A stretch of DNA of 64,000 nucleotides, from NCBI GenBank assembly GCA_009829735.1, contig CM020618.1:150246-214245 (forward strand). Direction: 5' to 3'. Position 1 is the stretch's first letter. Each line of letters opens with the position of its first letter. A model generated the notes under the pieces. It worked only from the letters and a program-made list of their open reading frames with translations, had not been told where the DNA came from and ran no database searches. The translations under genes and the position numbers were made by a program. Positions 4,501 to 60,976 of this stretch are shown in pieces. This DNA is from Pyropia yezoensis. Its lineage: Eukaryota > Rhodophyta > Bangiophyceae > Bangiales > Bangiaceae.

Positions 4501-4705
4501 GTGATCATGTCGGTGACGACGGACGAGGACGCGACGGTGTCGTCAGCGGAGGACGCGGTCGGCGGCGCGGACCAGGTAGGCGTTGGAATCCGGCAACTCG
4601 GCATGCGCAATGACTCTGGCCGCAGCGTGTTAAATCTTTGGGCTCGACTTCTCCCCCGGGCATGTTCGACGGTCATCGGAGCGCAATGGTAGCCCCTGAC
4701 GACCT

Positions 4706-5976: not shown

Positions 5977-6079
5977 GGCAGTATAACAAAATGGCTCGCG
6001 GCTTTTGTCAGGCTGGCAGGGGAAAGACATCGTGGCGCTTCTCCTGCGCGGTGCTTCTCACACTAGAACGACTGTTGTT

Positions 6080-16260: not shown

Positions 16261-16799
16261 TGTGGGAGATTGGGCCGGAATTCGGTACCAATACTTTGAA
16301 GATTCGGGTCAAGTGGACCTGACCGGAAGTCGAAATTCACCCGACCCACGATGGTGAAACTTCTGACTTCTGGACGGAAATTCGACTAGGACTTCCGACA
16401 TACTAGAGCAGGGTAATGCTGCTGGTATTTGTTTCTTGGGATTTTTGCACGGGAGCCAGACGGATTTCTACGCTTTGAGTTCTTTGCATGTGGAGTGATA
16501 TGATTGGTTTGTTTGAGGGTTCATTTTCTGAGTGTTTTGAGGGGTTGCGTGAGCGTGTGAGGAGGGTTGATAAGGAGGGACAGCAAGGCGGGGAGGGCCC
16601 ACCTTGGCTGGCCAAGCAAGAAAACACCGTCTGGCTCCGACACATCTTGTTCGTGCCTTGGTGAGTGGACCCGCTCACCACACGCAAGTTCCGTGTTCGG
16701 CTGTGTGGAGGTGCTTGCTTCCGGTGTCCCAAGTTGGGATATCGGCAATACTCCTCTTCCTTCCCTGACTCGGGGTTGGTGCTTGGGAGTACTGCTACA
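16261..16799 (+). repeat. 5' LTR of element A
   Basis: Begins TGTGGGAGATTGGG and ends TGCTACA (TG...CA termini). It is identical in length (539 bp) and, by eye, in sequence to 25956-26494. It should contain the promoter and polyadenylation signals of the element. Confidence 0.95.
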
Positions 16800-16801
16800 G
16801 T

Positions 16802-16819: not shown

Positions 16820-17116
16820 GAGGATATCGACTTTGGTACCTCCCTTGACCGGAGACGGGACCAAGTTGGCCCCTCTCCCCCTTCGGCACCGAGACTTCCG
16901 GTGACACGATCGACTCGCCTACGTTCCGAGCGTTCGCTGGGCGACGAGGTTGGCCACCGTGAGTCTTGGTGGGAGACCCGGAGTTTCGGGAAACCTCACC
17001 GCCTTCCTTGAGGCAGGTGGAGGGGTGGAACGTGCTCTAGGAACTCCCTAGCTGACGATCCCCGACTCTGGACACCGTTTGGTCGTTTTGGTTGACTCCA
17101 CGTGACTCTTGTGGAG

Positions 17117-18880
17117 ATGGCTGGTGAGGGAGACCCCCCCATTGCGCCGAGTGTACCTGGGGAGGGGGAGCGTAGTCCTCCCCCGACGGGCGGAGTACCA
17201 CCCAGGCCGGGCAGTGCGGATGTGGTGGGTCCAGAGGTTGGACCCCGACGGCGATCGGCCAGGTTCCTTCCCAGGCCGTCACAGGAAGAGACGGGCGGAG
17301 TTCGCCCTTCTCCGGTGGGAGCGCCGAGCCAGCGTCAGGCTCCGGCAACCTCTTCGGGGAGTGACGACACTCACTTCGGCATGGGACCGCCGACCGGCAG
17401 AGGTGACGGGACAGGGAGTTCTGTACCCCGGGTTGGTGGGTCCGCGCCACGACTGGTGCCGGAAGGACCGGGTGGGAGCTCGAGTCAAGCTCCACCTGGA
17501 TCATCCGGTATCGTGGATAACTCGGTGATGACTGCCATCGCACAAGTCGTGCGAGAGGAGGTGGGGAAGGCGTTGAAGGGGAGCACCCCTCCGCCTGAGC
17601 AGGCCTCGAGGCGTCAGAAGCGACGGGAGATTCGACGTACTCTCCGTCGTGAGGTGGACTCGGAGTCTGAGTCCTCTGCAAGTGGCAAGTCGGGTGAAGA
17701 AGATCTTACTCGACATGGTCGTGTGACTCACACGGACCGTCTTGGGACTAGAGTCGTCCCAGGAAAGATCGTGGTGAATAATCCATTGTTCAAGGATGTC
17801 TTCGACTGTGAGACATATGGGTTGGTCAACAAGTCGTTGACCTACTCAAATAGCCAGGCCCGTACCCTGGGCCGGCGCAAGAAACACGTTGCGCAATCCT
17901 TCGGGGTCCGTTCAGAATGGGACGGGACTCCACCCCTGAAGGTCTTCCAGTTTTTGCGGAAGTTCGCAAAAGCCTGCGATGACAATGATGTCTCTGAAGC
18001 TGAAGCGTTTTTCATGCTTCAGGACTTCACCAAGGAGCCACTCCGCTCCGAGGTGATGAACGTCATGCCAAGTCGGCATGGTGGGAATCCGGGTGAGGTG
18101 ACCTCCTACCTGGAGTTGGTTAATTGGATCCTTCGTCTTCACGCAGACGAGGCTTCCTTGGCTGTGCAGGTTGAAGAGTTCAACCGCGCCACCCAGAGTA
18201 AGGGTGAAGAGGAACGGGAGTTCGCTGAACGACTCCGTCAGCTGAACGTCCTCTGTGGATTCCTATATCCCCAAGGAGTCATTAAGGGACGCTTTGTGGA
18301 GGGTGTCCACCGAGCAGCTCGAGCGACTGTGCGAGAGCGTAATACTCCGACCATGACTCTGGCGGAGTTGGCACGCATCGCCCAGACTAAGGGTGATGAG
18401 TACCGCTGGCTCGTGTCTGAGCAGCGGAAGGAACGAGAGAAAGAAGTTAAGGGAATGGAAGCAAGTCGCTTCCGCAGAACTGCAAGGATGCCTTCCTACA
18501 CGCGGACGTACCCTGCAGTACCTTCGTCCTCAACTCGAGAGACGGAAGGTATGGTGGCCGCCATCCCTGATAAGTCACAGGGAAAAGCGGGGCCATCGGC
18601 GTCGATGAGTGATCGGCCGTGTTGGCAGTGTTCCAAGTCGGGACACTGGGCAGCCCAATGCCCCACTCTGGACGTTCGTTTGAGAGCCCTGTTGGCTCGT
18701 ATTGGGAAGCTCGGTATTCCGAGGACTGATTCGGATACCCGGCCACACACCACACGTGTGACGGCCATGACTCAACCTAAGTCAGAGGATGAGTCCACGC
18801 TTGAGAAGGGGGAAACCTCTTCCCCCAGCTCAAGTGGCAAGGATACTCCATCATCCGAGTCGGATGAGGGAAACGCCTAG
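17117..18880 (+). CDS. gag: gag, element A
   Basis: The frame is open from 17102, but the first ATG is at 17117 (MAGEGDPPIAP), giving 587 residues. Residues 1-200 are Pro/Gly/Arg-rich and disordered. A helical capsid-like block follows (about 215-440), with conserved FDCETYGLVNKSLTYS, EWDGTPPLKVFQFLRKF and EVTSYLELVNWILRL, all nearly identical in element B. The nucleocapsid zinc knuckle is CWQCSKSGHWAAQC (Cys-x2-Cys-x4-His-x4-Cys). The C-terminus is acidic and Ser-rich. The stop TAG (18878-18880) lies four bases after slippery heptamer GGGAAAC. The protein packages the RNA in virus-like particles. Confidence 0.93.
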   Translation: MAGEGDPPIAPSVPGEGERSPPPTGGVPPRPGSADVVGPEVGPRRRSARFLPRPSQEETGGVRPSPVGAPSQRQAPATSSGSDDTHFGMGPPTGRGDGTGSSVPRVGGSAPRLVPEGPGGSSSQAPPGSSGIVDNSVMTAIAQVVREEVGKALKGSTPPPEQASRRQKRREIRRTLRREVDSESESSASGKSGEEDLTRHGRVTHTDRLGTRVVPGKIVVNNPLFKDVFDCETYGLVNKSLTYSNSQARTLGRRKKHVAQSFGVRSEWDGTPPLKVFQFLRKFAKACDDNDVSEAEAFFMLQDFTKEPLRSEVMNVMPSRHGGNPGEVTSYLELVNWILRLHADEASLAVQVEEFNRATQSKGEEEREFAERLRQLNVLCGFLYPQGVIKGRFVEGVHRAARATVRERNTPTMTLAELARIAQTKGDEYRWLVSEQRKEREKEVKGMEASRFRRTARMPSYTRTYPAVPSSSTRETEGMVAAIPDKSQGKAGPSASMSDRPCWQCSKSGHWAAQCPTLDVRLRALLARIGKLGIPRTDSDTRPHTTRVTAMTQPKSEDESTLEKGETSSPSSSGKDTPSSESDEGNA

Positions 18881-18930
18881 CCGCTGGGACTAAGACTGAC
18901 CCAAAGGCTCCAGCGGTAATGAAGCGGGTT
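18868..18930 (+). promoter_or_regulatory. -1 ribosomal frameshift signal between gag and pol (element A)
   Basis: G GGA AAC at 18868-18874 is in gag register (GAG GGA AAC GCC TAG), and slipping back one base enters the pol frame (GGG AAA CGC CTA). After a 6-nt spacer, CCGCTGG (18881-18887) pairs with CCAGCGG (18910-18916). Loop bases GACCC (18898-18902) can pair with GGGTT (18926-18930), giving a possible pseudoknot or kissing loop with the small hairpin GAAGC/GCTTC. GGGAAAC is an established slippery heptamer in retroviruses. The same layout occurs in element B. Confidence 0.8.
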
Positions 18931-21900
18931 GCTTCACGCTCACCGACCCATGGGAGAGTGAAGGTCCTGACTCGACCTCGAGGGGTGAGACCTAGGGACA
19001 AGGCCCCTCCTCAGAAGCACGACCCGAGTCGGATTGTGTCAGTGCTGGTAGGGAGTAACTACCAGGTCGCAGCTCGACTCTGGCTGCAGGATGGATATGA
19101 GTTTACCTCTCGTGTCATAGTCGACACAGGCTCTGCTGCCTCTCTCATTAGGCAAGACTTATTGCCAGAGGGGACAGATGTGAGCCCCGCCGGCTCACCC
19201 GAGTGGCGTATGTTTGATGTCAATGGGGGACTCCTCCCCATTGTTGGGTCTATTGCATTGACTGTTTGCATTGGGTTCTACCAGACGCAGGTGAACTTTG
19301 GAGTAGTCTCCAATATGTCAGTCCCCGTACTCCTGGGAACTGACTATCTGGACCTCCATGTCCCGGCCGTCTGTGGACCGGAAGGGATAATCCGAATGCG
19401 TAATGGAGAGACTGTCCCCATATTGCGTAAAGGGAGGACTGTTTCCCCTACGACTCATCAACCTAGGGAAAACTCTCCCAAGGGTGGAGGCTCTACGACC
19501 CATGTACGAGTATGTAAGGGTACGGTAGTCCCGCCCCGATCAAGGACCTTTGTGCGAGTACGCACACGGTTTCGAGGGAATGGACTTGTTTCCCCCGTGG
19601 ACCGAGTCTATTATACTCACCAAGTGCAAGTTGCTTGGGGCCCCATGACTTGTGGGGATGACCAAACCTGGTGGGTGGAGGTCCTCAACACGTCGGAGGA
19701 ACCTCGACGACTTCCCGGAGGCATGAAGATTGCGTCGATCTCTACCTTTGAGGGGAATGTCGTTGCTGTGACTCAACAGCAATGGGAGGATATTGGAATG
19801 GCAGGCTCTGCCGACCAATCGAGTTCATCGACGGCTAAGTCGCCGACGGTACATCGGGAGAACATCCCGGAGTGTTTACATGGACGACTGGATGAGTTAA
19901 TCCAGAAGCATCACAAGTTGTGGAATGGTGACCTTGGGCTCATCAAGGCCACCGAACACAGAATCGTGTTGAAGCCAGGGGCTAGGCCAGTTCGCCTGAG
20001 TCCCTACCGTATGGGACCAGACTCACGGGAACTCACCCGAGAGCAGGTCCAACGGATGCAAGACATGGGTGTCATTGAGCCTTGCTCAAGTGAGTGGGCC
20101 AGTCCCATAGTCTTGGTGCCCAAGTCAGACGGCACGATGCGGTTCTGCATCGATTATCGTAAGCTAAACGAGCGGACGGTAAGGGATAGTTACCCCTTAC
20201 CCCGTATGGACGATTGCCTTGACTCACTCGGTGAGGCACAGTACTTTTCCACGTTGGACTGCAACGCGGGGTACTGGCAGATACCCATCCGCAAGGAGGA
20301 CAGACACTTGACCACCTTCACGTGTCACTGTGGAGTTTATCAGTGTACACGGCTCCCTTTTGGGCTTTGCAATGCACCTGCGACTTTCCAGCGTGCTATC
20401 GACTTGATACTTGCCGGAGTCAAGTGGCAGATCGCCCTGGTGTATCTGGACGATATCATTGTGTTCTCCGGGACTGCCGAAGAACACTTGTCCCACTTGG
20501 ACAGAGTGTTTACCCTGTTGGGTGAAGCAGGAGTAACACTCAAACCTACGAAGTGTCACCTCTTTAGTAATGAGGTGGAGTACCTCGGCCATATAGTCCG
20601 GCCAGGTCGCATTCTGGTCAATGAGAAGAACCTCATGGCCATCCGTCGGGCGAAGTTCCCCCAGACGCAGACACAACTCAGGAGCTTCCTGGGTATGTGT
20701 AACGTATACAGACGCTTTGTGGCGAACTATGCCAAAGTGTCTGCACCGTTGAACCACTTGGTAAGTTCCAAGATGCCCAAGCGCTTGGATGCTCCCAAAC
20801 CCCCGGAGCAAGAAGCGTTTGATAGGTTGCGAGAGCTCCTCTGCAACCCACCGGTGTTAGCGATCCCGAGACCGGGGGCTCACTACATCGTTGATGTGGA
20901 CGCAAGTTACGACCAACTCGGTTGTTGCTTACTCCAACAACAGCCTTCGGGGGAGTATTTACCCGTTGGCTATTTCAGTAAGGGACTCTCACCCGCCCAG
21001 AAGAACTATTCTGTGACGGAGGTAGAGGGTCTTGGCGTGGTATGGGCAGTCTCCATGCTACGGCCATACATCGAAGGAAGGAAGTTCCTCATTCGATGTG
21101 ACCACAAGGCTTTGAAGTGGATACTCACCACTACAGCCTGTACGAATAACCGACTCAATCGATGGCGACTCTGCCTCGCTGAGTTCGATTATGATGTTGA
21201 ATATCGGCCAGGCCCGAAGCATGCGGTTGCGGACGCGTTGTCTCGCATACCGACGGATGGGAAAGACACTTCCCCTATCCCTGAGGAACTCCTCATGTGG
21301 CAGTGACCACTCGCTCCGGAACTGTCCTCGACCCGAGGATGCCTGGCATGGCCAAATTATTACCCGTGTCTTTGGATGAGTTTGTCCAGGCACAGGAGAG
21401 CGACAAACTTTGTCGACGACTCAGGAAGGAGCTCGACCAGGCTCAACCGACTCGGTTCTTCCTGAATGACAACGGCATACTCTGCCGTAAGGGATATACC
21501 CAGGGGGACAAGCAAGTCGTCGTCCCCAAGGAGTTACGCAAGAGTATCCTCCAACGGGAGCACTCCTCACCGTTGGGTGGACACCCAGGGTCTACGAGGA
21601 TGTATCAGACCCTACGTAAGAAGTACTATTGGCCATCACTCGTGGCTGATGTGTACGGATATGTAGCCGCATGCGCGACTTGCGCAAAGAATAGACTCAT
21701 GGAGTCCCGGCAGACTTCTTCCATGAGACTCTTTCCTGCAACAGAGCCGTTTGCAGCGATAGCAGTGGACTTACTCGGTCCACTACCACGAACACCTGAA
21801 GGATATGAGTACCTTCTGGTGATGTGTGATCGCTTCACTAAGCTCACACGGGTATCCCCACTCAAGGATATCACAGCCGTGGACGTTCTGAGTGAGTTAC

Positions 21901-22907
21901 TCGACGTCTGGGTTGCCAGTTATGGCATCCCCGACTCTATCCTTTCGGATAACGGACCACAGTTTGCGTCCGTCCTGTATCAGGGAGTCATGAAGATGTT
22001 AGGGGTGCAGACGAACTTCGCCACCCCTTACCATCCCCAGACTAATGGGCAGGTGGAACGATTCAACAGGACTCTAGTGCGCCAGTTGCGTCACTATGTC
22101 CATGACCATGTAGTCACATGGGCTCGTTATGCGTCACTACTCGTGACAGCATACAACTCCCAGGTACACAGTAGTACGGGAGAGGCACCGTTTGCCTTCG
22201 TCTGCCCCCGACGACTTCCGTCAGTAGCTGTGGAGCGTCTCACCCAGACTGAGGGTGAGACTTCGACTCAAACACCGAGTCAGGCGAAAGCCTCCCTACT
22301 CCAGAGACTGGAGGAGATGATACCCCTTGTCCGGGCTACTATGGAGAAGGCCCAAGCCCGTTACAAGAGGTACTTCGATGTCCGAGTCAGACATCGTCGC
22401 GATCCGCTCCGAGTTGGAGATTGGATTTATGTTAACTCCCACGACAATAAGGGAGGGAAATTGGTCTTCAAGACTCTGGGACCATATCACATCCTTAAAA
22501 CGGATGGACGTCGGTTAACCATCGAGAGTGATGATGGTATCCGGACAATAAATGGGAATCACGCGACTCGCGCACCCGAACCCCCAGAGGGAGATCCCGC
22601 TTGGGAAAGGGCTTTGCAAGCATGGAAAGTCCCATCCTTGCCGACCTCTTCCAATAAGCCATTGGAGGCGGTGTTCGACAAGTTTGTCGGGCACGGATAT
22701 GATGAGTCGGGGCGACTCATGCTCCGAGTCAGGTGGTTCGGGTATGGACCAACTTCCGACACATGGGAGTTTGTAGAGGACCTACCAGTAGAGAAGGTCC
22801 GTAGATACTGCCAGACTGTGGGCATATCTATACGCCGACGTAGCACTCGTACGTCGGGGGATGAAGTCCCTGCTCCAAGTCAGAGCAGAGCGGCAAGCCA
22901 ACCATGA
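18875..22907 (+). CDS. pol: pol, element A (protease-RT-RNase H-integrase-chromodomain)
   Basis: Entered by -1 slippage; the first ATG in frame is 18919. Counting from there: retropepsin DTGS at 69-72; reverse transcriptase with YLDD at 509-512; RNase H from about 655 (VDVDASYDQLGC, EVEGL, RCDHKALKW). The frame stops at 21304-21306 and continues -1 from about 21297, probably by a 2-bp TG duplication (ATGTGGCAG for ATGGCAG), because element B is continuous here. Counting from 21297, integrase has zinc-binding H89, H96, C126, C129 and catalytic D158, D218, E254 (exact D-35-E spacing). The tail is a chromodomain (about 455-510, VFDKFVGHGYDESGR, RVRWFGY, DTWEFVEDLP), which guides integration to modified chromatin. 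Confidence 0.92.
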
Positions 22908-23035: not shown

Positions 23036-24951
23036 CTAGCGTTCCATATGGCCACCCCCACCACTATAGGGACCGCCCGACCACGAACCCCCAGGGTCGT
23101 AGGCCGGTAGCGGAGGGGCGTAACCCACTCGGGAGGGCCCCGGAGTGGAAGCACTGGGAGGGGCCCGCCGACTCGCGGACCCATCCCCGTCGTAAGATAG
23201 ATGTCCGGAGGTACTCCCTCCGTGACGCGGAAGCTGCTGCTGAGTCGACAGCAGCCGTTGGACAAACTCGTGTCCAACCGCGAGGCGAGTGACCTCAGCT
23301 GCCAATGACTGTCGCGCCGTGGCTGAGTCGCCCGACGCGAGGAAGTGACTGACACGCCGGGTGACCCAAGCCAACGTGTCAAGGGAGGCCACGAGTGAGG
23401 CCTCCACCGTGGCGTCATACATGATGGCTCCCAAGTTGGGAAGCATCTCGCCAACGCCACGCGCAATCGGCATGGGTACCGGAGTTCGGACCCGTAGCGA
23501 ACCCAACGCCACGTCGGGGAAGGGCTCGAGGAACTGGAAGGGTGGAGCCTGAGTCGGCTCCACACCCCCGAGGTCGGAGTCGCGACCCGCGGGGAAGTCG
23601 TCGGCACAGCTCGCCCGCGGCTTCGAGGGGCTCCTCGATGAGCACCACGACGAGTCGTCGCCGATGATGTCGCCCACCCAGAGCCAGGGGGCGACGTAGA
23701 GGGAGTAACCCCCTCTGCGTAGGGAAGGGAAGAGTCCCCCAACCCCTCACGCAAGAACAGCTGTCCCTGCACCAGAGTATGGGTGACATGGACGAACTTT
23801 CGGGGTGGCTCACTCTCCAACCCCGGCTCTGGACGCTTGTTGCGGCGGAGGAAGGGTTCCAGCTGCGCCCAATCGAGTCGATTGTGCAGGGTGACCATAC
23901 CCTTAAGGAGGAACGGAGCCAGGTCCCCCGCGCCCAAGGCTAACCAGTGGAAGCCAAGGGTTTCCATACCCTCCACCAGAGCCGGTGGGAGGTGCCACAG
24001 GTAACCCCGATGGACTACATCGGAGTACCAGCCCCGAGTCACCACGACCACCCAGTGCGTGGCGAGGTAGGCGAAGACCCGGTTACCCTCCGAGCTGGAG
24101 CGTAGCACGGAGCCAAAGTAGGCAACGAGGAGGGGGATCCGAGCCGGAAACCCACAAGGTACCTCCACTGTCTCCCACCACCCTGGGAGAAAAGGGTACT
24201 GGTGCTCACGCTCCTCCAGAGGTACGTGGGTGAACTCCACCCGCGACCCGTGGATGAGGAAGCCCGAGGAGCCCCGGAGTCGGAACTCCTCTCGCACCAC
24301 GCCGTGTTGGGCGTGGGCGTCCTCTCCGCCCAGGTAGGGACGGGGAAGGGCACACCACTCGGTAGACACAACCGCGTGGGTGTCGTCGATCTCCTTGTCG
24401 CCCGACCCCAAGGCGAGGGAGGTTGACAACGCCTGGACTTCAGGCGCGTCCGCCAGGCAGAGTAGCGCTGGTAGGTCGCAGACCACCCCATCAGGTAGAG
24501 TCACCTGGTTGGGGTACCGACGAGTCCGGCGGTACCATACGTCGGTCCGCCGTGGCTCGGGGATGATCAAGTAGACATCCTTGAGCTTGCAGTCGGGAAG
24601 CTCCCCGACTGACTTGGGAGGCGCCCAGGCTCGGGGCCCCATAGGAGGACGGGGCCGCGGCGGGAGTAGCAGCCGTGACTCAGGAAGGCGGGGGATGGGA
24701 GTCACATCCCCTTCCGCCACCGGGTTGGAAGACCCATCCCCCGGTGGGACCACGGGCGAGGGGGCAGTAGGAGGTGATGGGGCGGGGACGGCTGAGGCGG
24801 CCGCCTCCGACCCTCGCCCGGGACGAGTCGTCTCCATGGCCGACCCCCGGCTGAGAGACTCCTCAGTCCCGAGGGCCTCCTCTCCCGTCCGTCGCTTGTC
24901 CGACAGAGACGTCGGAGACGGGGACAAAGGCCGACTCGGCTCACCCGCCAT
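23036..24951 (-). CDS. Antisense third gene of element A, unknown function
   Basis: Runs opposite to gag-pol inside the element. I take ATG 24951 (MAGEPSRPLSPSP) because repeats lie upstream of it, although the frame stays open to 25527. About 120 disordered Pro/Ser/Arg residues are followed by a folded-looking domain (KLKDVYLIIPEPRRTDVWYRR, VVCDLPALLCLADAPEVQAL, YPFLPGWWETVEVPCGFPA, YFGSVLRSS, LATHWVVVVTRG, GYLWHLPPAL, KFVHVTHTLVQGQLFLREG). Near 23715 a one-base shift (one G missing from a G run) leads to the C-terminal frame 23677-23036 (MLPNLGAIMYDA, VTRRVSHFLASGD, Gly/Ser-rich tail). The 24951-23715 block aligns with frames on the minus strand of element B. I recognise no family. Antisense extra genes are known in some plant Gypsy elements, which is the closest precedent. 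Confidence 0.75.
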
Positions 24952-24960
24952 CACGCGACC

Positions 24961-25205
24961 AACCTTGACCGACTCGGTGAGGTTGAGCACGGGGGGGGAC
25001 ACGACCCGCGCCCCCTCCGACGACAACCAACCTTGACCGACTCGGTGAGGTAGAGCAAGGGGGGGGGACACGACCCACACCCCCCACCGACAACGAAGAA
25101 GCCCGACACAAGGGGCAGCGCGGGGAAGACACAACCCCGCCAACGAGGACAAAGGGGGGGGAACACAACCCACGCCCCCACCGACAACGAAGACGCCCGA
25201 CACAG
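24961..25205. repeat. Tandem repeats upstream of the antisense gene (element A)
   Basis: AACCTTGACCGACTCGGTGA recurs at 24961 and 25029 (68-bp spacing), and CCGACAACGAAG recurs at 25087 and 25181 (94-bp spacing), each next to G-runs and ACACGACCC. These direct repeats sit just 5' of the antisense ATG, where its promoter or leader would be. Confidence 0.7.
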
Positions 25206-25942
25206 GGGCGGAAGGGGGAAGACACCACCCCAACCAACGACACCAACCGCACGGCGGGAAGAGACAGACCCGCCGACGCGAGGGAGCAGCGGCGGGAAGG
25301 CACACACCCGCCCGCACACACGAAGGGGAGAGAAGACCCCGCACCGGCGGCCGAGTCCCACCGCCGGCGACCGAGTGCAACACCCCCAACTCGGGGTGCG
25401 CACACCCCTCAACCCTGACTAGAAAGGGGGGGAAGGAGTGAGGAACACCCCGCAGAGAGCCAGCTGGGTGTGGATCGAGCTGAAGGGGGGGACACAACCC
25501 GACCCCCCGAGAGCAACCGTACCCCAACTGAAGGGGCAGGTGCAGGTCGACGTTCCGAGTGAGAACGTCGACGCCCTACTCCTCCAGTTGAGGGGCAGGG
25601 GGTGTGGCGGAGGTACGCCGACACCCAGATTAGGGGGCTCACCCACACGTGAGTCCACCCGTGGAGCACCCTGACCAGGTGGGGGACGACTTTCCCCCAC
25701 ACCTGTTTCGCGTGGAGGGGGCTCCTCTACCCAGTGTCAGGGCAGAGAGCGCACCCCACGGAGAGGGACTGCCTCTCCCGGAGGGCCCCGCCGGACGCGA
25801 GTGCAACCCCGGCGTAACCCTGGTGCACGCTAGACGCCAGCGATGCACCGTACTTTGCATCTCAACTCGGGAATTGCATCCTCCTCTCCCGGTCACTGCG
25901 ACTCGCCGCTGATTGGACGTCCACCGGGACGGCTGGACTTTT

Positions 25943-25955
25943 GAGAAGGGGGAAA
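25943..25955 (+). other. Polypurine tract, element A
   Basis: GAGAAGGGGGAAA, 13 purines immediately before the 3' LTR, the usual primer site for plus-strand DNA synthesis. Element B has a 13-purine tract in the same place. Confidence 0.85.
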
Positions 25956-26494
25956 TGTGGGAGATTGGGCCGGAATTCGGTACCAATACTTTGAAGATTC
26001 GGGTCAAGTGGACCTGACCGGAAGTCGAAATTCACCCGACCCACGATGGTGAAACTTCTGACTTCTGGACGGAAATTCGACTAGGACTTCCGACATACTA
26101 GAGCAGGGTAATGCTGCTGGTATTTGTTTCTTGGGATTTTTGCACGGGAGCCAGACGGATTTCTACGCTTTGAGTTCTTTGCATGTGGAGTGATATGATT
26201 GGTTTGTTTGAGGGTTCATTTTCTGAGTGTTTTGAGGGGTTGCGTGAGCGTGTGAGGAGGGTTGATAAGGAGGGACAGCAAGGCGGGGAGGGCCCACCTT
26301 GGCTGGCCAAGCAAGAAAACACCGTCTGGCTCCGACACATCTTGTTCGTGCCTTGGTGAGTGGACCCGCTCACCACACGCAAGTTCCGTGTTCGGCTGTG
26401 TGGAGGTGCTTGCTTCCGGTGTCCCAAGTTGGGATATCGGCAATACTCCTCTTCCTTCCCTGACTCGGGGTTGGTGCTTGGGAGTACTGCTACA
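25956..26494 (+). repeat. 3' LTR of element A
   Basis: 539 bp, identical by eye to the 5' LTR. Followed by target duplication GGGCA (26495-26499). Confidence 0.95.
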
Positions 26495-28333
26495 GGGCAG
26501 TGGGAGAGGGCGGGGGAACAGGTGGGTGTGGACGTGCGTCCTGGTCGTGCGCGCGTGTGGGGGGAGTCACCTGGGATGTGGTCCAGCCACGCTCATAAAG
26601 CCACCGTCAGCACGTGGTCCGTGCACACGGTCGCCTAGGCGCGGCGGGGCCTAGCGTCGTGTGGAGGCACGAGGTGACGGGCGCATGCGCGCCCCCGGCT
26701 GGCAGACCCGAAGCGGGAAAGGGGGATAGGGTCTCTCACTCATGGCGCGCGCTTGCGGGATGATCCGCAGGGCCAGCTGCAACTCTCTTGCAGACAGGAT
26801 TGCATTGCACTGGTGGCGGCACCTGGTGCCGGATGCATATTCTTTGGGGCCAGCTCGTCACAGGGGTCGTAGGCCACTCTCATCCACGTATGTCCCGCTG
26901 TGTCGTTGCTTCGGTCGGCCACCGAGAGTGACGCGTCCTTGGCAGTCGCGCGAAGGAGTCCCGCTTTTTTTCTTTCCGCGGGAACACCAGACAGCATGGT
27001 TGCGTTGAGCACGCAGTTCTGCTTGATGTAACGTGTCCCGGTGTACAGCACAGTCGAGCCGTGGCTCAGCGCCTACACTGTGTGCCGACCGTCCTCTGGC
27101 AAGGTCGTGTGATGTGCGGCTGGGGTGGGCTGATCTCTGTGTTATGTATCACCACGACTTCTGGTGGACAAAATTTTTTTGAATAAATAGTCTCACTTCG
27201 CAGCACTGGTAAACAGCAGGTGCGGCCATGGCAGGGTTGGCGAGCACCTGCACTCGCGGAATAGACGCTGGCCCGCGCCCGACTCCTGACGAGGGCGCCT
27301 GGCCGTTGCTATGAACGGTTGCAGGTTCGAACCGATATGAGTTCAATTCCCATTCGCACCATTTATTTTTCGTGAATTTATATTCACAGTCTCTTACAGC
27401 AGTGTAAGAGGGGTTATAGGCCAATAGATTATCAGATACATGCACTGGTGCGCACACAATCCAATCATATGAGGTCGTTCATTGAGCACGGCCCGTGCCC
27501 TGGGACCGACCGAGCCCTTCCGTTGGCGGCTACGGCGCCTCCAGTGGCAGACCGCTGATACAGACGCCCTGAGCCATGAACCACCTACCCCGTCAGGTGT
27601 GGGGGCCCGAGATGGCCGTGACGCCTCGTCGGGGTAGCCGCCGTCTCACTCATGCAGTCTTCCAATGTGGCGTCGCGTGTGGCCAGAGTTGGGAACTCTG
27701 GACACACTGGCGGTGTGCATGCTGGCCACCTGTCGGTAGTAGAGTAGAGTGGACCTGGGAAGCACAACCACATAGCTCCGCGAAGATTGATGCGCATAGC
27801 GAGGCGTGTTGTTCTACTCATAGTTCGAGACAAAGGGGCGACAGAGTGGCGCCACCCGGGATTTCTGCCCTCAGTTTCGACATCCATTGTGGAGACATCG
27901 TCTTGTGGGCCGGCAGGTGCGCGGGCGTCCGCTGGCTGTACCAGGCGCGGAGGGGGAGCAGGTAGTGGTGCTCAGGCGGGGTCGGGGAGCGGGGGAACGC
28001 CTCGCCAGCCAACCAACGCAGCGCCGCCCCCGCGTCTGGCTCACCGCCGCAGCTGGAGCACGTGCGCTAGAGAAAGGAGTTCGTGTCCCAGGCGGCACGG
28101 TCTGTGTGCAACTGTTCTTTCCTTCTGAGGACGGACGTCCGAGGGCGAGGAAGGCTCTGAGTCGTTTCCCCGCATCACCCTGCGGCAATCCCCCAGGGTT
28201 TGCGCTTATCTATTGCTCTCAATGGGGCAACTCGTCCACCCCCGGGATGCAAGCGACAGCCTTGGTGGCACCCGCCGACACTGTTACCTCCCCCAGTCGC
28301 CAGCCACGGACTGCACAGCTGTGTCCCCGCCCC
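26495..28333. other. Spacer after element A; possible displaced hAT end
   Basis: The G-rich minisatellite interrupted by element A resumes here. CCTAGGCGCGGCGGGGCCTA near 26633-26652 is an imperfect inverted CTAGG motif of the kind often found at hAT ends; it may be the real terminus of the hAT element. At 27331-27360 a B-box-like GGTTCGAACC is followed by GAGTTCAATTCCC, but no tRNA fold is possible. No protein gene is supported; frames on both strands are short. Confidence 0.35.
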
Positions 28334-40337: not shown

Positions 40338-40806
40338 TGTGGCAGTATTGACCCCCAGGTAGGGGGGCAACACGTGCCATGCAAGGGGCGGCAGGCCACT
40401 AGCCTGATCCGTTCCTCCCCCTGCATTTGGGTCCATATTCCCTAAGTTTGGGATAGTTAGCTTAGTAGTAAATCCAACTTGGATTTGAGGGTTTTCTGCA
40501 TTTATCGTCTTGAATCTTCGTGTGGCCCGGTGGGCAGGTGCTGGGGTGGGAGATTCTGAGTGGCGAGATTCTGAGTGGACCCTGGGGGGATAAGGGGAGG
40601 GACAGCGGGGCTTGGCCCTGCGTCCCCGTCCCGACCAAGAAACTGATGGACCACACACCATCCTCTTGTTTGTCCGTTGGGGGTTTGCCCCACAACAGGG
40701 ACAGAGTGTGTGCGACTTGCACTTCTTCCGGTTCCCCCGACACGGGAGGCAGCCCTAGCACACCGCCCCAACTTGGGTGCCGTGTGTGCTAGTGGTTTTT
40801 GCCACA
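40338..40806 (+). repeat. 5' LTR of element B
   Basis: Starts TGTGGCAGTATTGACC and ends TTTTTGCCACA. It shares TGTGG...ACA termini with element A. A third, truncated copy lies at 60850-60976. Confidence 0.93.
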
Positions 40807-40826: not shown

Positions 40827-40925
40827 CAGAGGTAAACTTTACCTCCGGGTGCACCCGGGTGTAGGGGGCCCTCTGTCTCAGGGGAACGGTGGTCTTGGAC
40901 CGTGTCATACGGATCGTCAGCCAAC

Positions 40926-42872
40926 ATGGCTAGCTCGGACCCCCCGTCGTCCGGGGAGTACACGGGTGACGCACGTACTTCAGTGCCTTTGAATACTGGT
41001 GAGACACAGGTGGGTTTACCTGGGGTCGCAGAGGGACTAGAGGTCCCTCAAGCCAGCAGGACTGGAAGTACGGGCGGGCAACAGGCCACCCCGACTCAGT
41101 CGGGAGTTCACTCGGGTGACACTTCTGATGTGGGTGGGCCGAAGTCTGGCCACCGTGTGGTATACTCAACGGGAACGTCCCAAGGGGTGAGGACTGTCCC
41201 CGCGGGTTCCACTCGGGTTGGAGCCAACTTTGGCTTGGAGTCGTCGCCAACTAGGCTTTCGGAGGACGGTGGACCTCCGTTGGTCGGCGATGGGCTCGCG
41301 CCCATGCCCCCGGTTGAGACCCCTGAGGAACGTGGTTGCCCCTCAGGTGGACTCCCGGAGGCGGACCGAGACTCAACTGGAGTCGTCAATCCACTCCTCG
41401 CGGAAACTGTCCGTCGGGAGGCGACCAATGTGTTGCGGCAGACTTTGCCGGACCTGGTGGTCACGATGACGAATACTATTCTGAATCAGATTGTGGCGAG
41501 TTTGCCAGATGGCCTTAATGTCCAAACCGGATTGGGGCTTTCGAGCCCGCAGGCGCAGGGGGAATCCCCCCTTACGCCTATCTCTGGTCGCCCCGAACTG
41601 GGGGCGACACCTGTGACTCCCAACGAGGGAGCCACACCATACTCGGTGGGGCGTACGCCCTTCACGGGGGAGTTCCCCCCGGAAACGCCGGCGGCTACAC
41701 CAAGCGCGCCGCGCCGGACTACGGGCACTGAGAGTGAACTTACCCCAGTGCCACAGCGGCTGTTCCATCAACGTGAGGTGCCGCCCAAGATCCAGGTAGC
41801 CAACCCGGTCTACCAGAGGATCTTTGACTGTGAGACCTACGCCCTCCACAACAAGTCGGTGGCGTATGGTCCTGACCAGGCCCGAGCCATGGGCCGTGCC
41901 AAGAAGAATGCACTTCATTCTTTTGGGCACAAAGCGGAGTGGGACGGAACTCCCCCCCTCCGTGTCTTTGAGTTCCTACGTCGTTTCACAAAAGCCTGTG
42001 ACGACAATGCCATAAGTGAAGGCATGGCTTTTTACATGCTACAGGAGTTTACGAAGGGCGACCTACGGACAGAACTTATGTCCGTCATGCCCAGCTCCTC
42101 AAGTGGAGGCGCTGGGGAGGTGACGTCCTATTTGGAGCTCGTCAACTGGTTGTTGAGAGCCATGGTTGATGAGGCAGCGTTGGCTTCTCAAGTCGAGGAG
42201 TTTACGCAAGCCCATCAGGAAGAGGCGGAGGACGAGTTGTCCTTTGCGGAGCGAGTCCGTAAGCTCAACAATCTTTGTGGGTTTCTTCATCCACAAGCTG
42301 TGGTGAAGAGTCGGTTTGTGGAGGGACTCCATTGGTCAGTCCGGATGGAGACCCGGGAGCATAACACTGCCCGGGCGACCCTGGCCGAGTTGGCCAGGTT
42401 CGCCTATCGCAGAGGCGAGGCCTACCGCAAGTTGCGGGAGGAACAACGCCAGGAGCGTCAGGCCGAGTTGGCCAAGGAACGGGAGGAGGCGCGCCAGGCC
42501 AGAGAGTTGAGAGAGGCACGCCGAATCCGCAAGGAGAGGGTGGTAGCTGCCGTGGGAACTTCCCAGGGTATCCCTTCGTCTTCCCCAGTTGGGAAGACCC
42601 CTCCCGGAACGGACCATCGATGTTGGAACTGCAACTCCGATGGTCACTGGGCATATGATTGCCCCAAGTTGAGTAAACGCATCCAACAACTTGTTAGGAA
42701 TGCGAGTAAAAAGTCGGCTACGAACGAAGTACGTTCACGCCGCGAGGGTGGGTCTCGACCGGTCGTTGCGGTCGCCACACCCTCGGCGGAGGAGGCGGAC
42801 ACGTCGTCCTCGGACTCGTCGTCTTCCTCCCCGCCCTCAGATTCGGACGCCAAGTCGGCGGGAAACGAATGA
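40926..42872 (+). CDS. gag: gag, element B
   Basis: The first ATG in the open frame is 40926 (MASSDPPSSGEYTG), 648 residues. A long disordered N-terminus precedes the capsid-like block shared with element A (FDCETYALHNKSVAYG, EWDGTPPLRVFEFLRRF, EVTSYLELVNWLLRA). A charged Arg/Glu helix follows, then zinc knuckle CWNCNSDGHWAYDC, then a Ser-rich acidic tail. Stop TGA is at 42870-42872, three bases after heptamer GGGAAAC. Confidence 0.93.
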   Translation: MASSDPPSSGEYTGDARTSVPLNTGETQVGLPGVAEGLEVPQASRTGSTGGQQATPTQSGVHSGDTSDVGGPKSGHRVVYSTGTSQGVRTVPAGSTRVGANFGLESSPTRLSEDGGPPLVGDGLAPMPPVETPEERGCPSGGLPEADRDSTGVVNPLLAETVRREATNVLRQTLPDLVVTMTNTILNQIVASLPDGLNVQTGLGLSSPQAQGESPLTPISGRPELGATPVTPNEGATPYSVGRTPFTGEFPPETPAATPSAPRRTTGTESELTPVPQRLFHQREVPPKIQVANPVYQRIFDCETYALHNKSVAYGPDQARAMGRAKKNALHSFGHKAEWDGTPPLRVFEFLRRFTKACDDNAISEGMAFYMLQEFTKGDLRTELMSVMPSSSSGGAGEVTSYLELVNWLLRAMVDEAALASQVEEFTQAHQEEAEDELSFAERVRKLNNLCGFLHPQAVVKSRFVEGLHWSVRMETREHNTARATLAELARFAYRRGEAYRKLREEQRQERQAELAKEREEARQARELREARRIRKERVVAAVGTSQGIPSSSPVGKTPPGTDHRCWNCNSDGHWAYDCPKLSKRIQQLVRNASKKSATNEVRSRREGGSRPVVAVATPSAEEADTSSSDSSSSSPPSDSDAKSAGNE

Positions 42873-42914
42873 CCGTTGGGGCTGGTCGTCCGAAGCTCAC
42901 AACGGCAGCCTCGG
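42860..42914 (+). promoter_or_regulatory. -1 ribosomal frameshift signal between gag and pol (element B)
   Basis: GCG GGA AAC GAA TGA carries G GGA AAC at 42860-42866 in gag register. A -1 slip gives GGG AAA CGA ATG, entering pol. After a 6-nt spacer CCGTTG (42873-42878) pairs with CAACGG (42900-42905). CCGA (42890-42893) can pair with TCGG (42911-42914). Compared with element A the stem pairs have changed on both sides. Confidence 0.8.
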
Positions 42915-45900
42915 CCAAGTGGGCCAGGAGGACGAACCAACCGTGCCGGATACTGCGGCGACCTAAGGGAGTCCGCCCACCTCGGGTAGGACTCCCCAAG
43001 AACGTAAACCCACGTCGGGTCATCGCGGTGCTGACGGGTGAGAACTTCCAGGTGGCTGGACGGGTGCAACTTGCCCCCGGCCGTGCATGCTGTACCCGTA
43101 TCGTACTTGATACCGGGTCAGGAGCCTCCTTGATACGCAAGTCGCTATTACCAAAGGAGGTGAAGCTCCAACGCTGGAGGTCCAAAGCTGACCATATGAT
43201 TGACATCAATGGTGGGGTACTTCCCATCGTTGGTGCCGTGACCCTACCAACTAGGTTGGGGACCCATGAGGTCGACGTGACCTATGGCGTAGTTGAGAAT
43301 ATATCGGTACCCCTGCTTCTGGGTACCCCTTATGTTGTTACACAAGTGCCTTTGATTTGTGGCCCTGAGTACTGGGTCAAGTTGATGAATGGGGAGACTA
43401 TCCCCATCCTTGGTAAGGGGAAGTCTGTGGCTCCTGTGACAGTCTCACAGTCGAAGCCTGTTTGCTCTGTGAGGGAAGGGTTTACTGCTACCCTGCGTCT
43501 AGCCCGTAAAGTCACGTTGCCCCCCAACTCGGTGGCGCACGTTGATGTTGTAACTGATTTTACGGGGAACGGGTTGGTGCACCCTCACCCCCGTCTTGCT
43601 CGCAAGCACCAAGTGCATGTTGCCCTTGGCACGATGGACTCCAAAGCCGGAGTCCCGTGGAGGATCCAGGTGATGAACCTGAGCCCGACGCCCAAGTACT
43701 TCAAGTCGGGAGCCAAGTTCGGCTATATCGACCAACACGAGGGACCGGTAGTAGCGGTCACCCTCAACGCGGGCGCAAGTAGCGACCCGAAGTCCGGAAA
43801 GGAGAAGCATCAAGCCAAGTCGGCCGCCTCTCCTCGACCCCATGTGAACATGGAGGGTGTCCCCCCCAGGTTGAGGGTTCAAGTTGAACGCCTCTTGGAC
43901 CAATATCACAAGTTGTGGGACGGTCAATTGGGACTCATGAGAGCCACCCAACACCGGATCGAGTTGAAGCCCGGTGCACCCCCTATACGCCAACAACCGT
44001 ATAGGGGAGTACCTCGTTCAAGGGCCCTCGTTAAGGAGCAAGTTGCTCGCATGGAGGCCCTCGATGTGATCGAGGCCAGCAACGCCGAGTGGGCGAGTCC
44101 GGTGGTTATCGTCCCCAAAGTTGATGGGACCCCCCGGTTTTGTATCGACTACCGTAAGCTCAACGAGAGCACGGTGAAGGACAGTTATCCCCTACCTAGG
44201 ATGGATGACTGTCTGGACTCTCTGGGGGAGGCAAACGTGTTCTCTACCCTGGACTGTAACGCGGGGTACTGGCAAATTCCCATTGCCCCGGAGGACAGGC
44301 ATAAAACTACCTTTACCTGTCACTGTGGTACCTACCAGTGCAAGCGTCTACCGTTTGGTCTGTGTAACGCGCCGGCAACTTTCCAGCGCGCTATGGACAT
44401 GATTCTGGCCGGAGTACGGTGGCAGATCTGTCTTGTGTACCTAGACGATATCATTGTGTTCTCCCGAAGTCCGGAGGAACACATTGGCCATCTTGGCCAG
44501 GTGTTCAAGCTACTTGCTGACGCCGGTGTGTCACTGAAGGCGAGTAAGTGCCACCTCTTTACTCAAGAGGTGGAGTACTTGGGACATGTTGTCCATCCGG
44601 GGCGTCTCAGTGTTAACGAGAAGAACTTGAGGGCCATTCGTAAGGCTCAGTACCCCCGGACCCAGACCCAGATGAGGAGCTTCCTCGGGATGTGTAACGT
44701 GTACCGACGTTTCACCAAGGGCTTCGCCAAGGTGGCGAAGCCGTTGAATGAGCTAGTGAGCTCAACGCTACCGAAGAACCTGCCTCCCCCAAGTCGGGTG
44801 GAGCAGGATTCCTTTGAGACTCTTCGGGACCTTCTGCTGAAGCCCCCCATCTTGGCTATTCCCAGGTTGGAAGGCCACTACATCCTGGATGTGGACGCTA
44901 GCTACGACCAACTTGGTTGTGTGTTGCTTCAGCAGCAGCCGGACAAGGAGTACTTGCCGGTGGGATACTTTAGTAAGGGGCTGAACTCGGCCGAGAAGAA
45001 CTACGGAGTCACCGAGTTGGAAGGACTCGCCGTGGTGTGGGCGGTGACGTCACTTCGTCACTACCTGGAGGGTGAGAAGTTCCTCATCCGCTGTGACCAC
45101 CGCGCGTTGCAGTTCATCTTTAAGACGGACTGTACGAATACTCGTCTCAACCGGTGGAGGGTGCGACTGGCACCCTTCAAGTTTGACATTGAATACCGAC
45201 CTGGCAGGCAACATGCCCTTGCCGATGGCCTCTCTCGGGTAGCCACCGAGGGGCTGGACACTAACCCAGTCGATGAGGACATCCCCATCGTGGGGGTAGT
45301 CACGCGCTCGGGTCAGGCGTTGAACCCCGAGGCGCCAGGGAACAAGAAGTACTTGCCCCTGTCCCTGGACGAGGTGGTGAAGGCCCAGGCCGAGGATCCC
45401 TTCTGCAAGTCGCAGAGGGATATACTGGATACAGTGGTAGAGACGCGTTTCTTTCTGGGAGACGATGGCCTCCTCATGAGGAGGGGGATATTCCAGGGGA
45501 CCGAACAACTTGTCGTCCCCGCATCCCTCAAGGACAGTATCCTTGAGAGGGAGCACAACGCTCCCACGGTGGACACCTGGGGTCTAGTAAACTGTACCAG
45601 ACCCTGAGGACCAGGTACTACTGGCCGTCCATGGTGGTGGACATCTACAGTTGGGTGGCTGCCTGCACAAGTTGTGCACAGAATCGTCTGATGGAACGGC
45701 GGCCTACTACGGCTATGCTATTGTTCCCGGCCAGGGAGCCCTTCGCCGCGTTGGCGATGGACATCCTTGGGCCACTGCCTGTGACCGAGGAGGGCAACCA
45801 GTACCTCCTGGTCATCTGTGACCGCTTCACGAAACTTACGCGAGCGATCCCACTGGCAGAGATCACGGCCATGTCGGTCGTGTCAGCCTTCCTAGATCAC

Positions 45901-46850
45901 TGGGTTGCCGCGTATGGCATCCCAGATAGTACACTATCGGACAATGGACCGCAATTTGCGTCTGTACTGTTTCAGGGAGTGCTGGATATGTTGGGGGTTA
46001 AGGCAAACTATGCCACCCCCTACCACCCACAAACTAATGGGCAGGTGGAGCGCTTCAACAAAACTATTGTTAGGCAGCTGCGCCACTATGTGAGTGAGCA
46101 CGTGAAGACGTGGGACCAATACATTTCTATCCTTACTACTGCCTACAATTCGCAGGTTCACTCATCTACAGGGGAAGTACCCCTCGCTTTTGTGACCCCC
46201 CGTCGCGTGCGGTCTATTGCCGTGCGGCGGTCGCTCCCAACTAGGGAGGATGGTGGCAGTACGCCTACTCCTACTGAGAGTAAGGCGGAGTTCGCCGCTA
46301 GGCTTGAAAACCTCATCCCTAAAGTCAGGGCTGAGATGGACAAAGCACAAAAGCGCTACAAGCGTACCTTTGACAAAAGGTGCGCAATGCTAAACATGTC
46401 CCCGAGCAGGGTGACTGGGTGCTGGTACACTCGCACACCCCAACTGGGGGTAAGCTGGTATTCCAGACGAAGGGACCGTACCAGGTCCTTCGTACTGATG
46501 GGCGGCGCTTCACCATCGAAAGTGACGATGGGGTCCGCACAGTGAACGGACAGGACGTGGTCAAAGTTGCACCACCGCCTGCAGGCGACCCAGCTTGGGC
46601 GCGTGCGTTGGAATCGTGGCGCCTCCCCTCACTGCCTGCGGCCAAACAGGGCCCACAGGAGTACGTGTTCGATAAGTTCATCGACCACGGATGGGATGAA
46701 GACACTGACCGCCTCATGTTGAGGGTGCGTTGGTTTGGCTACAAAGCCAAGGATGATACGTGGGAGTATGTGGAGGACCTTCCCGCTGAGAAGGTCCGGG
46801 CGTACTGTGCCCGGAAGGAGATAGACCCTAACAGCCCTCCCTCAACGTGA
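42867..46850 (+). CDS. pol: pol, element B (protease-RT-RNase H-integrase-chromodomain)
   Basis: First ATG in frame 42869. Protease DTGS is at 81-84 and RT YLDD at 524-527. RNase H follows (LDVDASYDQLGC, RCDHRALQF), then an uninterrupted link into the integrase zinc finger up to 45607. One C missing at about 45564 shifts to the frame 45607-46545 (HGGHLG, CTSCAQNR, MDILGPLP, LSDNGPQF, GQVERF: the catalytic D, D, E are intact). One G missing near 46380 shifts to 46380-46850, which carries the chromodomain (YVFDKFIDHGWDED, RVRWFGY, DTWEYVEDLP). Adding one base at each site restores one continuous reading frame, so these may be sequencing errors. Confidence 0.9.
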
Positions 46851-46960: not shown

Positions 46961-49073
46961 CTAGGCACGCATGCTAGACTCTCCCACTCCACGGCCCTCG
47001 CCCTCCGTGGAGGCGAGCGGCGAGACCCACGCCGATAACGGTCTCCACTCGTTGGAGGGGCGGCGGCTCCAAGTCGGAACCGTCGCGCCCTCACGGTCGC
47101 GAAAGGGCGCCGACCGTGGCCACTCTTCTGCCTGGTCTTGCGCGCAAGTTTGCGACGCAGACGCTGGACAGACTCCGTCTCCGACGGGGTAGAGGACTCC
47201 GAAACGGAGTAAGACAACTCGTCTTCCGATACGGAAGGAGAGCGCCGCGAGTGTCGGCGACGACGGCGAGGAGGCGAGTATGCCCGGCTCGCGCGACGTT
47301 TGCCACGCCCAAGTGGGGGCTGGCTGGGGCATAATAGCCCCAATGCGAGCCAACTCGGCTGTCATAAACTCCGCCACCGACTCGCAACTCGCGGTCGCCA
47401 CTGCAGTACGAACGCGCTCCTCAAGTTGAGGAGTCTCGGAACTCTGTAGGGTTGCGGTCGACGCGGCCAACCAGGAAATGGTGCGCACCAACGTGGTGAT
47501 CATCATCTCTGAGGTTAGAGGCGTGGGCGGCAACACCAACTTGGGGTATACCGTCAGGAGGGTGGCCCCCAAGTTGGGGGACACCGGGTGGAAGACTCCA
47601 CGGCCACGCTGATCGGGATGTTCCCGTGAGGTTGGAAAGGAACAGGAGGAAGCGGAGGGGCCGCCGAGGTGGCGGTACCCGGGTGTAACTGCGACCCCGA
47701 CTTGGGGCCCCCGCAGTAGGTTGAGTCATATGTCATCATATGAGGGCACGGCCATAACTATGGGCTTGTCCGGGGGTGGCGCAGTGTGGCGATCCACCCC
47801 CGGGGCATACGGGTAGTCCCCGATGCCCAACCCCTCTCGTAGGACCACACGGCCGTCGTGAAGTTCACGAGCGACCCACACGAACTGGCGAAGTGCGCCA
47901 TCGTCCTTGGGCCACGAGTGGGGCGGCGCAACTTGTGCTCAATGCTCTCCCACTCGATAAACTTATGGAGCCGGAGCATCTCCTCAAGTAGAGTGAGTTG
48001 TCCTGATGAGCACCCCTCAGCAACTAGCTGAGGGGTGAGCTGTTCCAACCTTGGGGGACCGGAGGGGGAGATGCCAGAGCATCCCGCGCCGCTGAACACA
48101 GGACACCCAGGTCGACATGACCTCGAGGAGCCACTGGGTGGCCAACATGGCCCACACCAGGTGATCAGGGGCAGCCGTCAACATGACGGAGCCGAAGTGG
48201 TCAAGCAACCGTGGCAACAAGCCGGGAACCCGTAGGGGACCTCAACTTGAGGCCACCACTCGGGCTTTTTTGGATAGTACTGCTCCTTGCTGGCAGCAGA
48301 CTGTTGAGAAACTCAAGTTGAGCCGAGTTCACCAAGTAGGGACCTCGCCGGAAGTCTTTCTCCATCCGCACATCAAAGTGATGAGTGTGCGGATCGGCTC
48401 GTGGAGGTACGGTGGGCGAGTTGCCACAGCGTCCCACGTGAAGGTCGGCAAGTCGCCGGGACCCGGGATAGTTCCCCCGCGGTCCACCATGGCCTTGGCA
48501 CGCTGAACGTCCTCAACCTCCTCATCGTCCAGGAAGGCAAACTGGACCGTCCTGAAGCGGCAGGGAACCCGAACCTACGGGGATACTTCCCCGTAGGCGG
48601 TCCCATACCCGGCCCATCGCTGCGCCAAGTCGGCCACAGCGAAGAACAGTCAGCCCCTCCTCATAGAGAGGCCAAGCGGGGTAAAACCACCGCCCCAAGG
48701 CCTCACGCGGGACAACTTGTCCCGCCCCGGGGGAGACCCCGCCGTCAACCCAAAGCCGGGCGACGCGGGAGTCCCGTCCCCCGGAGCGATCGGGAGCCCC
48801 CGCCGGAAGTCCCGGCGGGTGCTGCCCCGTAGGAGGTGTCCTCCATGCGCTCGTCAAGAGAGTCCGTCTCCACTCCGGAGTCGCCATGGCTCTCCCCAAG
48901 TTGGGGAGAGACGCTCTGGCTATCGCAGCACGAGACCCACCTCGAGTTGAGGGGGACTCGGATCGTGGGTATACGGGTGGCCTCCCAGCGTGGGCGGGCC
49001 CAGTGGAAGGTGAAGGGGAGGTGGTGGTGATGGTGAAGTGTGAACTGAGGAGAGCAAGCTGCCGAGTGGGCAA
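46961..49073 (-). CDS. Antisense third gene of element B, frames split
   Basis: Minus-strand frames reproduce, in order, the blocks of the element A antisense protein: RVWDRL (A: DVWYRR), FAFLDDEEVEDVQRAKAM (A: LLCLADAPEVQAL), EWWPQVEVPYGFPA (A: GWWETVEVPCGFPA), HFGSVMLTA, MLATQWLLEVMSTW, RGMLWHLP (A: RGYLWHLP), LLEEMLRLHKFIEWESIEHK, RQFVWVARELHDGRVVLREG followed by YPYAPGV (A: LFLREG, then LPYAEGV), and SPNLGATLLTVYP with TLVRTISWLAAS. Several one-base shifts separate the frames, so boundaries are approximate; MEDTSYGAAPAG near 48843 is a possible start. Conservation of block order and of hydrophobic and aromatic positions across diverged DNA argues for a real protein. Function unknown. Confidence 0.65.
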
Positions 49074-49225: not shown

Positions 49226-49689
49226 TGTGGCAGTATTGACCCCTAGGTAGGGGGGCAACACGTGCCATGCAAGGGGCGGCAGGCCACTAGCCTGATCCGT
49301 TCCTCCCCTGCATTTGGGTCCGTATTCCTAAGTTGGGATAGTTAGCTTAGTAGTAAATCCAACTTGGATTTGAGGGTTTTCTGCATTTATCGTCTTGAAT
49401 TTTCGTGTGGCCCGGTGGGCAGGTGCTGGGGTGGGAGATTCTGAGTGGCGAGATTCTGAGTGGACCCTGGGGGGATAAGGGGAGGGACAGCGGGGCTTGG
49501 CCCTGCGTCCCCGTCCCGACCAAGAAACTGATGGACCACACACCATCCTTTGTTTGTCCGTTGGGGGTTTGCCCCACACAGGGACAGAGTGTGTGCGACT
49601 TGCACTTCTTCCGGTTCCCCCGACACGGGAGGCAGCCCTAGCACACCGCCCCAACTTGGGTGCCGTGTGTGCTAGTGGTTTTTGCCACA
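49226..49689 (+). repeat. 3' LTR of element B
   Basis: 464 bp; five bases shorter than the 5' copy, mostly through one-base losses in C, T or A runs plus a few substitutions (for example CCCCCAGG to CCCCTAGG). Followed by GCTGG. Confidence 0.93.
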
Positions 49690-60790: not shown

Positions 60791-60849
60791 GAGCACAGGC
60801 ACCCCAGCTGAACTCGCACACGGCGAGGCGTGGCTTCCGCTCCTCTAGG

Positions 60850-60976
60850 TGTGGCAGTATTGACCCCCAGGTAGGGGGCAACACGTGCCATGCAAGGGCG
60901 CGGCAGGCCACTAGCCTGATCCGTTCCTCCCCCTGCATTTGGTCCATATTCCCTAAGTTTGGGATAGTTAGCTTAG
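60850..60976 (+). repeat. Truncated B-type LTR running into a gap
   Basis: Starts TGTGGCAGTATTGACCCCCA and matches the first 127 bases or so of the element B LTR with a few length differences, then stops at the N-run. After the gap no LTR sequence remains, so the gap hides a solo LTR or a whole element. Confidence 0.9.

Follow-up and report, generated by a model that had tools for sequence, protein, structure and literature searches.

An antisense third gene under purifying selection in two related Ty3/Gypsy element families of the red alga Pyropia yezoensis

Two long terminal repeat (LTR) retrotransposons, elements A and B, lie within the 64,000-nucleotide stretch of the Pyropia yezoensis genome analysed here (assembly GCA_009829735.1, contig CM020618.1, positions 150,246 to 214,245; the window), and in both a gene on the minus strand is found between pol and the 3′ LTR, antisense to gag-pol. 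The question raised by this locus is whether these minus-strand frames represent a genuine third gene kept by selection, and what its product might do for the elements that carry it.

One Accessory Gene in Two Element Families

The antisense gene of element A occupies 23036..24951 on the minus strand, with its stop codon at 23036 and its ATG at 24951, and that of element B occupies 46961..48890 on the same strand. BLASTP aligns the A and B antisense proteins at 36.7% identity over 289 amino acids (161 bits), and they share blocks in the same order, including the conserved motif WW-x-x-VEVP-x-GFPA. Both the antisense placement in the interval from integrase to 3′ LTR and the shared ordered blocks had been put forward in an earlier reading of the letters alone (the original prediction), and both are borne out. 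The two genes represent a single accessory protein gene that two related Ty3/Gypsy families share. The remaining coding regions follow the Gypsy order of gag, reverse transcriptase (RT), RNase H and integrase, and the aligned parts of A and B are 50% identical in gag (357 amino acids), 58% in pol (780 amino acids) and 68% in integrase; on these comparisons the elements are related, yet not close. The core of the antisense protein is 37% identical between A and B, below the value for gag. The stop codons of integrase and the antisense gene face each other, approximately 128 bases apart in A and 110 in B.

The ATG and stop first assigned to the A gene stand, however the frame between them is not intact in the window: relative to copy L002, with which it is identical across 1,913 aligned bases, it carries a single 1-nt gap that breaks the frame in the C-terminal third, and because of this gap the PNLGA block lies in a different minus frame from the blocks preceding it. 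The B gene, originally drawn from 49073 to 46961, is likewise present with its blocks, which are split over several minus frames, and the first methionine used is at approximately 48890 rather than 49073. Aligned to the open copy L020, the window B copy shows 97.9% identity; the window side carries 17 gaps, each of which breaks the frame, and the L020 side carries three, of which one does so. The window-side gaps in 46961-48890 are of one or two bases and may reflect either decay or long-read assembly error.

Open Frames of the Antisense Gene across the Genome

The genome searched comprises 107.5 Mb in 11 contigs, with the window in contig 1, and match counts are lower bounds, since only the best candidates were scored. 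The A-type gene has 638 codons in all 16 other loci read, which were picked from open matches and represent 15 distinct places (L002 and L030 being the same place), and open B copies have an open run of 720-724 codons. A search with the Pyropia vietnamensis relative P0004 returned 71 A-type rows, at least 56 of them full length and stop-free, the remainder consisting of eight with stops and seven partial rows (two of the seven being one place). With the L020 protein as query, at least 65 of 69 B-type rows were stop-free. Open runs of this length are not readily produced by composition: among 1000 shuffles of copy L036 that keep its dinucleotides, none contained a 638-codon open run, the maximum being 416. 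On the plus strand across the gene, none of the nine copies listed stays open for more than 204 codons, so the minus frame is not a by-product of a gene in the sense direction. The antisense gene is real and is kept open in many copies.

Purifying Selection on the Antisense Gene

The ratio of nonsynonymous to synonymous substitution rates (dN/dS) was estimated by pairwise maximum likelihood with our own GY94 code, between copies chosen for their open frames. Of 12 A-type pairs, 11 gave values of 0.24-0.40 for the antisense gene, with likelihood-ratio test (LRT) statistics of 12-89, and the three B pairs gave 0.21, 0.50 and 0.31 (LRT 38.7, 5.1 and 30.5, respectively). Integrase pieces of the same copies gave 0.09-0.45 in eight of ten pairs, the other two being 0.67 and 1.27 (not significant); as these values are similar, the antisense gene is constrained about as strongly as integrase. 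Third codon positions hold the largest number of differences in seven of seven pairs, as in L002 and L036 with 56, 24 and 114 differences at the first, second and third positions. When four pairs were divided by region, the N terminus and core were below 1 in all four, and the linker and the C-terminal part were each clearly below 1 in two.

The antisense gene is under purifying selection between subfamilies, in both families, as the original prediction had proposed, and the outcomes named there as contrary to it, that no other copy keeps the frame and that dN/dS lies near 1, are contradicted by the open rows and the pairwise values. That the gene is protein-coding and selected we regard as nearly certain.

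Divergence along the gene is uneven in some copies; between L033 and L037, successive 240-base blocks hold 27, 25, 2, 2, 10, 2, 5 and 5 differences, a mosaic pattern that suggests template switching between subfamilies. No tree underlies pairwise dN/dS, which is therefore undisturbed by mosaic copies.

The Antisense Protein

No match was found for any of 12 family members in Pfam (E up to 10), for the antisense protein in PHROG (E up to 0.1), or at significance for its sequence in the PDB (best E 0.5 and 0.21), in keeping with the initial impression that no described family carries these motifs. The named relatives among the matches listed are the P. vietnamensis hypothetical proteins MMPV_009580, MMPV_009578, MMPV_004663 and MMPV_001338, which share 51-57% identity over 83-94% of a 415-amino-acid query; the protein searches named no fungal relative, most matches carrying no name. 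An alignment of 12 sequences, including the 25% identical relative P0016, contains ten invariant columns and a further 29 that are at least 90% conserved. Within WW-x-x-VEVP-x-GFPA, alignments of both 12 and 20 sequences show either no change or at least 90% conservation at W, W, E, V, P, G, P and A.

The protein consists of a Pro/Ser-rich N terminus, a predicted helical core, an Arg-rich linker and a C-terminal part that is predicted to be helical with low confidence. Arg-rich clusters are found in both proteins, in the linker after the core in A and in an Arg/Ser-rich tail in B. The core of the A protein is encoded by 23707..24639 on the minus strand, where the frame is intact in the window. 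AlphaFold2, given 20 sequences, models the 311-residue core as mostly helical, the best of five models reaching a predicted local distance difference test (pLDDT) score of 85.7 and a predicted template modelling (pTM) score of 0.87, with pLDDT from 75.2 down to 43.8 in the other four. Foldseek searches with the predicted core gave no significant match in the PDB (best E 6.2) or in the viral library BFVD (best E 1.3). An origin of the antisense protein as a reverse-copied gag or capsid was considered and rejected, with hhalign probabilities of 0.12% and 0.49% against single A and B gag sequences.

Linkage to the Elements and Deletion Forms

To relate the antisense gene to its elements, RT places at 93% identity or higher were used (115 of 138 rows), leaving out 23 rows at 69-70%. 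Among the matches listed, an antisense match lies within 8 kb downstream of RT at 76 of the 115 A-type places and within 8 kb upstream at three. The strand is opposite to that of RT in all 76 paired places, and in 57 of these the distance is 3.0-3.1 kb. With at least 69 B-type matches in addition, the antisense gene is a feature of most copies and not a one-off capture. In the B loci L020-L023 it lies opposite to long plus-type open reading frames (ORFs). An RT partner is absent for 26 of 101 antisense places among the matches listed. Three of the unpaired RT copies were read (L042, L043 and L044), and each has a different deletion in the gene with the integrase stretch kept.

A deletion form present at several places was also identified. 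Nine of the 101 antisense places among the matches listed match only codons 1-260 or 1-261, and the four of these that were read (L039, L040, L041 and L045) share an identical junction, from approximately 23064 to 24172 in window coordinates, and lack codons 261-630 or thereabouts. L045 additionally contains a repeated piece of the integrase region. All four copies have their RT match within a 1,346-codon open frame, and the LTR pieces of the deletion form are 99.7-100% identical to the element A LTR. The 3′ flanks are unrelated in all ten pairs of five deletion-form places, indicating that these copies are separate insertions, and because the form could insert independently, the antisense gene's second half is not needed in cis. 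With a mobile deletion form of this kind, a requirement in cis can be told apart from one in trans, and long-term selection together with the lack of a cis requirement suggests that copies share the product in trans, or that its benefit is visible only over long times.

The reverse situation is found in L046 (locus 1-9901, the same place as L036), which consists of LTRs, an integrase remnant and 638 open antisense codons, with no gag or RT match in the locus. Its LTR pieces show 17 differences in 324 aligned sites and its antisense dN/dS against L002 is 0.25; it is possibly a helper or a domesticated copy.

Possible Roles of the Antisense Protein

The best explanation of these observations would be a selected antisense accessory gene, read from its own promoter in the approximately 1 kb between the ATG and the 3′ LTR, whose product acts in trans as a nuclear helper, and as a whole we hold this to be reasonably probable. 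Its parts differ in strength. Action in trans is likely. The least certain step is that the protein acts on DNA or RNA of the element within the nucleus and aids the spread of the element, which is proposed because of the Arg-rich linker and tail and the parallels in plants; a role of this kind has already been suggested for plant antisense ORF proteins. Between a positive nuclear helper and a repressor we lean, if only slightly, towards the helper. More tentatively, and with doubt prevailing, a new fold in the antisense third gene could be a trans factor for the spread of the family, served by two complementary kinds of defective element, one with integrase kept and the third gene deleted (L039-L041 and L045) and one with the third gene kept and gag and RT deleted (L046).

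Several observations weigh against a selected helper gene. Among the matches listed, 39 of the 115 A-type RT places have no antisense match within 8 kb, and stops are present in 4 of 69 B-type and 8 of 71 A-type rows. The choice of open copies for the dN/dS pairs tells in the same direction, as do the young pair L002/L031, with a dN/dS of 0.83 that is not different from 1, and the regional estimates, in which, on small dS values, two of the four pairs are indistinguishable from 1 for the C-terminal part and two fall short of significance for the linker. The deletion form itself implies that the antisense protein could be non-essential or inhibitory.

This last point leads to the reading in which the protein represses in trans, holding down copy number or silencing the element, so that a copy that has itself lost the gene may be released to spread. 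The form without the second half of the gene, present at up to nine places with LTR pieces nearly or fully identical to those of A, is consistent with such release, as are the other deletions in the same stretch of L042-L044, which leave integrase in place. However, deleted copies would not escape a trans repressor supplied by intact ones, a protein that benefits its own lineage accounts more easily for purifying selection across subfamilies, and full-length open rows (at least 56) outnumber the deletion form (nine among the matches listed), leaving repression unlikely. A different reading assigns the effect to the antisense transcript instead of the protein. The genomic RNA of LTR elements must run through to the 3′ LTR, and an antisense mRNA would be complementary to the genomic RNA spanning the gene, with which it could pair, feeding small-RNA silencing, or it could compete with gag-pol transcription. 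Such RNA effects are discussed for plant elements in PMC7264820. Codon-level selection and the residues conserved between A and B nevertheless point to a protein, and an excess of third-position changes is not expected from RNA pairing alone, so that this reading is quite improbable.

The two remaining readings concern where the gene came from and whom it serves. Its antisense orientation and the lack of any detectable relation to the elements' own gag would fit a nested insertion, in which the gene of another transposon landed in an ancestral element. Yet place and strand are the same in A and B, whose pol residues differ at 42%, one orientation is found in all 76 paired copies, and a scan for repeats of 40 bases or more, which short terminal repeats would escape, found none bracketing the gene. 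Nested insertion may be the ultimate origin, hardly the present state, and as an account of the gene it has a minimal chance of being correct. Retention of the gene by the host in some copies, that is domestication, has a chance only a little above this; it draws on the diverged LTR pieces, absent gag and RT matches, open frame and low dN/dS of L046, however L046 is one copy only and its divergence may mostly predate insertion. Against these alternatives, the preferred explanation remains a selected gene for a trans-acting helper. As the genome is small, with dozens of copies that are open and many that are altered naturally, the role of antisense third genes becomes testable by observation.

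Organization of Elements A and B

The LTRs of element A, at 16261..16800 and 25956..26495 on the positive strand, show two mismatches over a 548-base alignment, a few flanking bases included, and a purine-rich tract precedes the 3′ LTR. Between them, the positive strand encodes a gag-like ORF (17102..18880) with a CCHC zinc knuckle (zf-CCHC E 7e-4, slightly below the curated cut-off), an RT/RNase H ORF (18919..21306; RVT_1 E 9e-36, RT_RNaseH E 7.6e-30) and an integrase (21297..22907; rve and Integrase_H2C2 domains) with a chromodomain-like C-terminal stretch at approximately 22686-22787. The Chromo match at the integrase end (E 2.4e-4, 21.4 bits) is below the Pfam cut-off of 25.1. The best PDB sequence matches of this end are plant DNA methyltransferase chains (E 5.4e-5, region unchecked), followed by Clr4 (5.9e-4), and some PDB chains matching the integrase by sequence contain chromodomains. 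The approximately 1 kb from the antisense ATG to the 3′ LTR (24952..25955, minus strand) contains two-copy direct repeats (families D12 and D13). Immediately upstream of the ATG, at 24958-25208, are direct repeats of 59 and 41 bases in two copies each, and extra partial matches of these among copies suggest that the repeats vary. The stretch from 25445 to 26177 is 90.9% alike in the divergent copy L046.

Element B is bounded by LTRs at 40338..40806 and 49226..49689 on the positive strand, which are 98.3% identical. Its positive-strand genes are a gag-like ORF (40902..42872) with a CCHC zinc knuckle (zf-CCHC E 2.1e-5), an RT/RNase H ORF (42869..45607; RVT_1 E 3.8e-36) and an integrase (45631..46850; rve) whose frame is interrupted near 46545 and which has a chromodomain-like stretch at approximately 46671-46805. 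Here too the Chromo match (E 3e-5, 24.3 bits) is below the cut-off of 25.1. The chromovirus-like label that the original prediction gave to both elements is supported by these weak scores only. A run of N at 49894-50242, just past the 3′ LTR, is an assembly gap or a masked stretch, and a third, partial B-type LTR start at 60848-60976 (97.7% over 131 aligned bases) is perhaps a solo or cut LTR.

Comparison with Known Antisense Genes

In place, strand and retention, the antisense gene of A and B is the same as known antisense additional ORFs located between pol and the 3′ LTR (aORF-3R). The gene23 of Grande and the antisense ORF of RIRE2 are antisense like the A/B gene, however both elements belong to the Tat-type lineage, whereas the integrases of A and B end in a chromodomain-like stretch. 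PMC7264820 reports for Grande that the protein is nuclear and that the gene has its own promoter. In Retand, a non-chromovirus lineage of flowering plants, the protein TRP28 (PF04195, Transposase_28) is predicted to bind DNA, and approximately half of the elements also have tandem repeats in that region (PMC11963269). The A/B antisense protein shows no TRP28 domain, as PF04195 matches none of the 12 family members and nothing in this genome, each at E up to 10. An antisense extra gene in a non-plant element is known from the Boty elements of Botrytis, whose brtn gene (PMC7264820; also the title of Zhao et al. 2011 as cited in PMC8365987) resembles the A/B gene in orientation, with a fungal host.

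The function of antisense third genes in plant and fungal LTR retrotransposons is stated as unknown in PMC7264820 and PMC11963269, and no red algal example was found in the literature searched, subscription journals being mostly outside its reach. The layout is thus known from plant and fungal elements, while the protein family and host lineage look new, gene23, brtn and PvRetro13 ORF2 being compared by description alone. A known antisense layout now extends to the genome of a red alga, where the gene shows codon-level selection and its protein is without a match among the library families.
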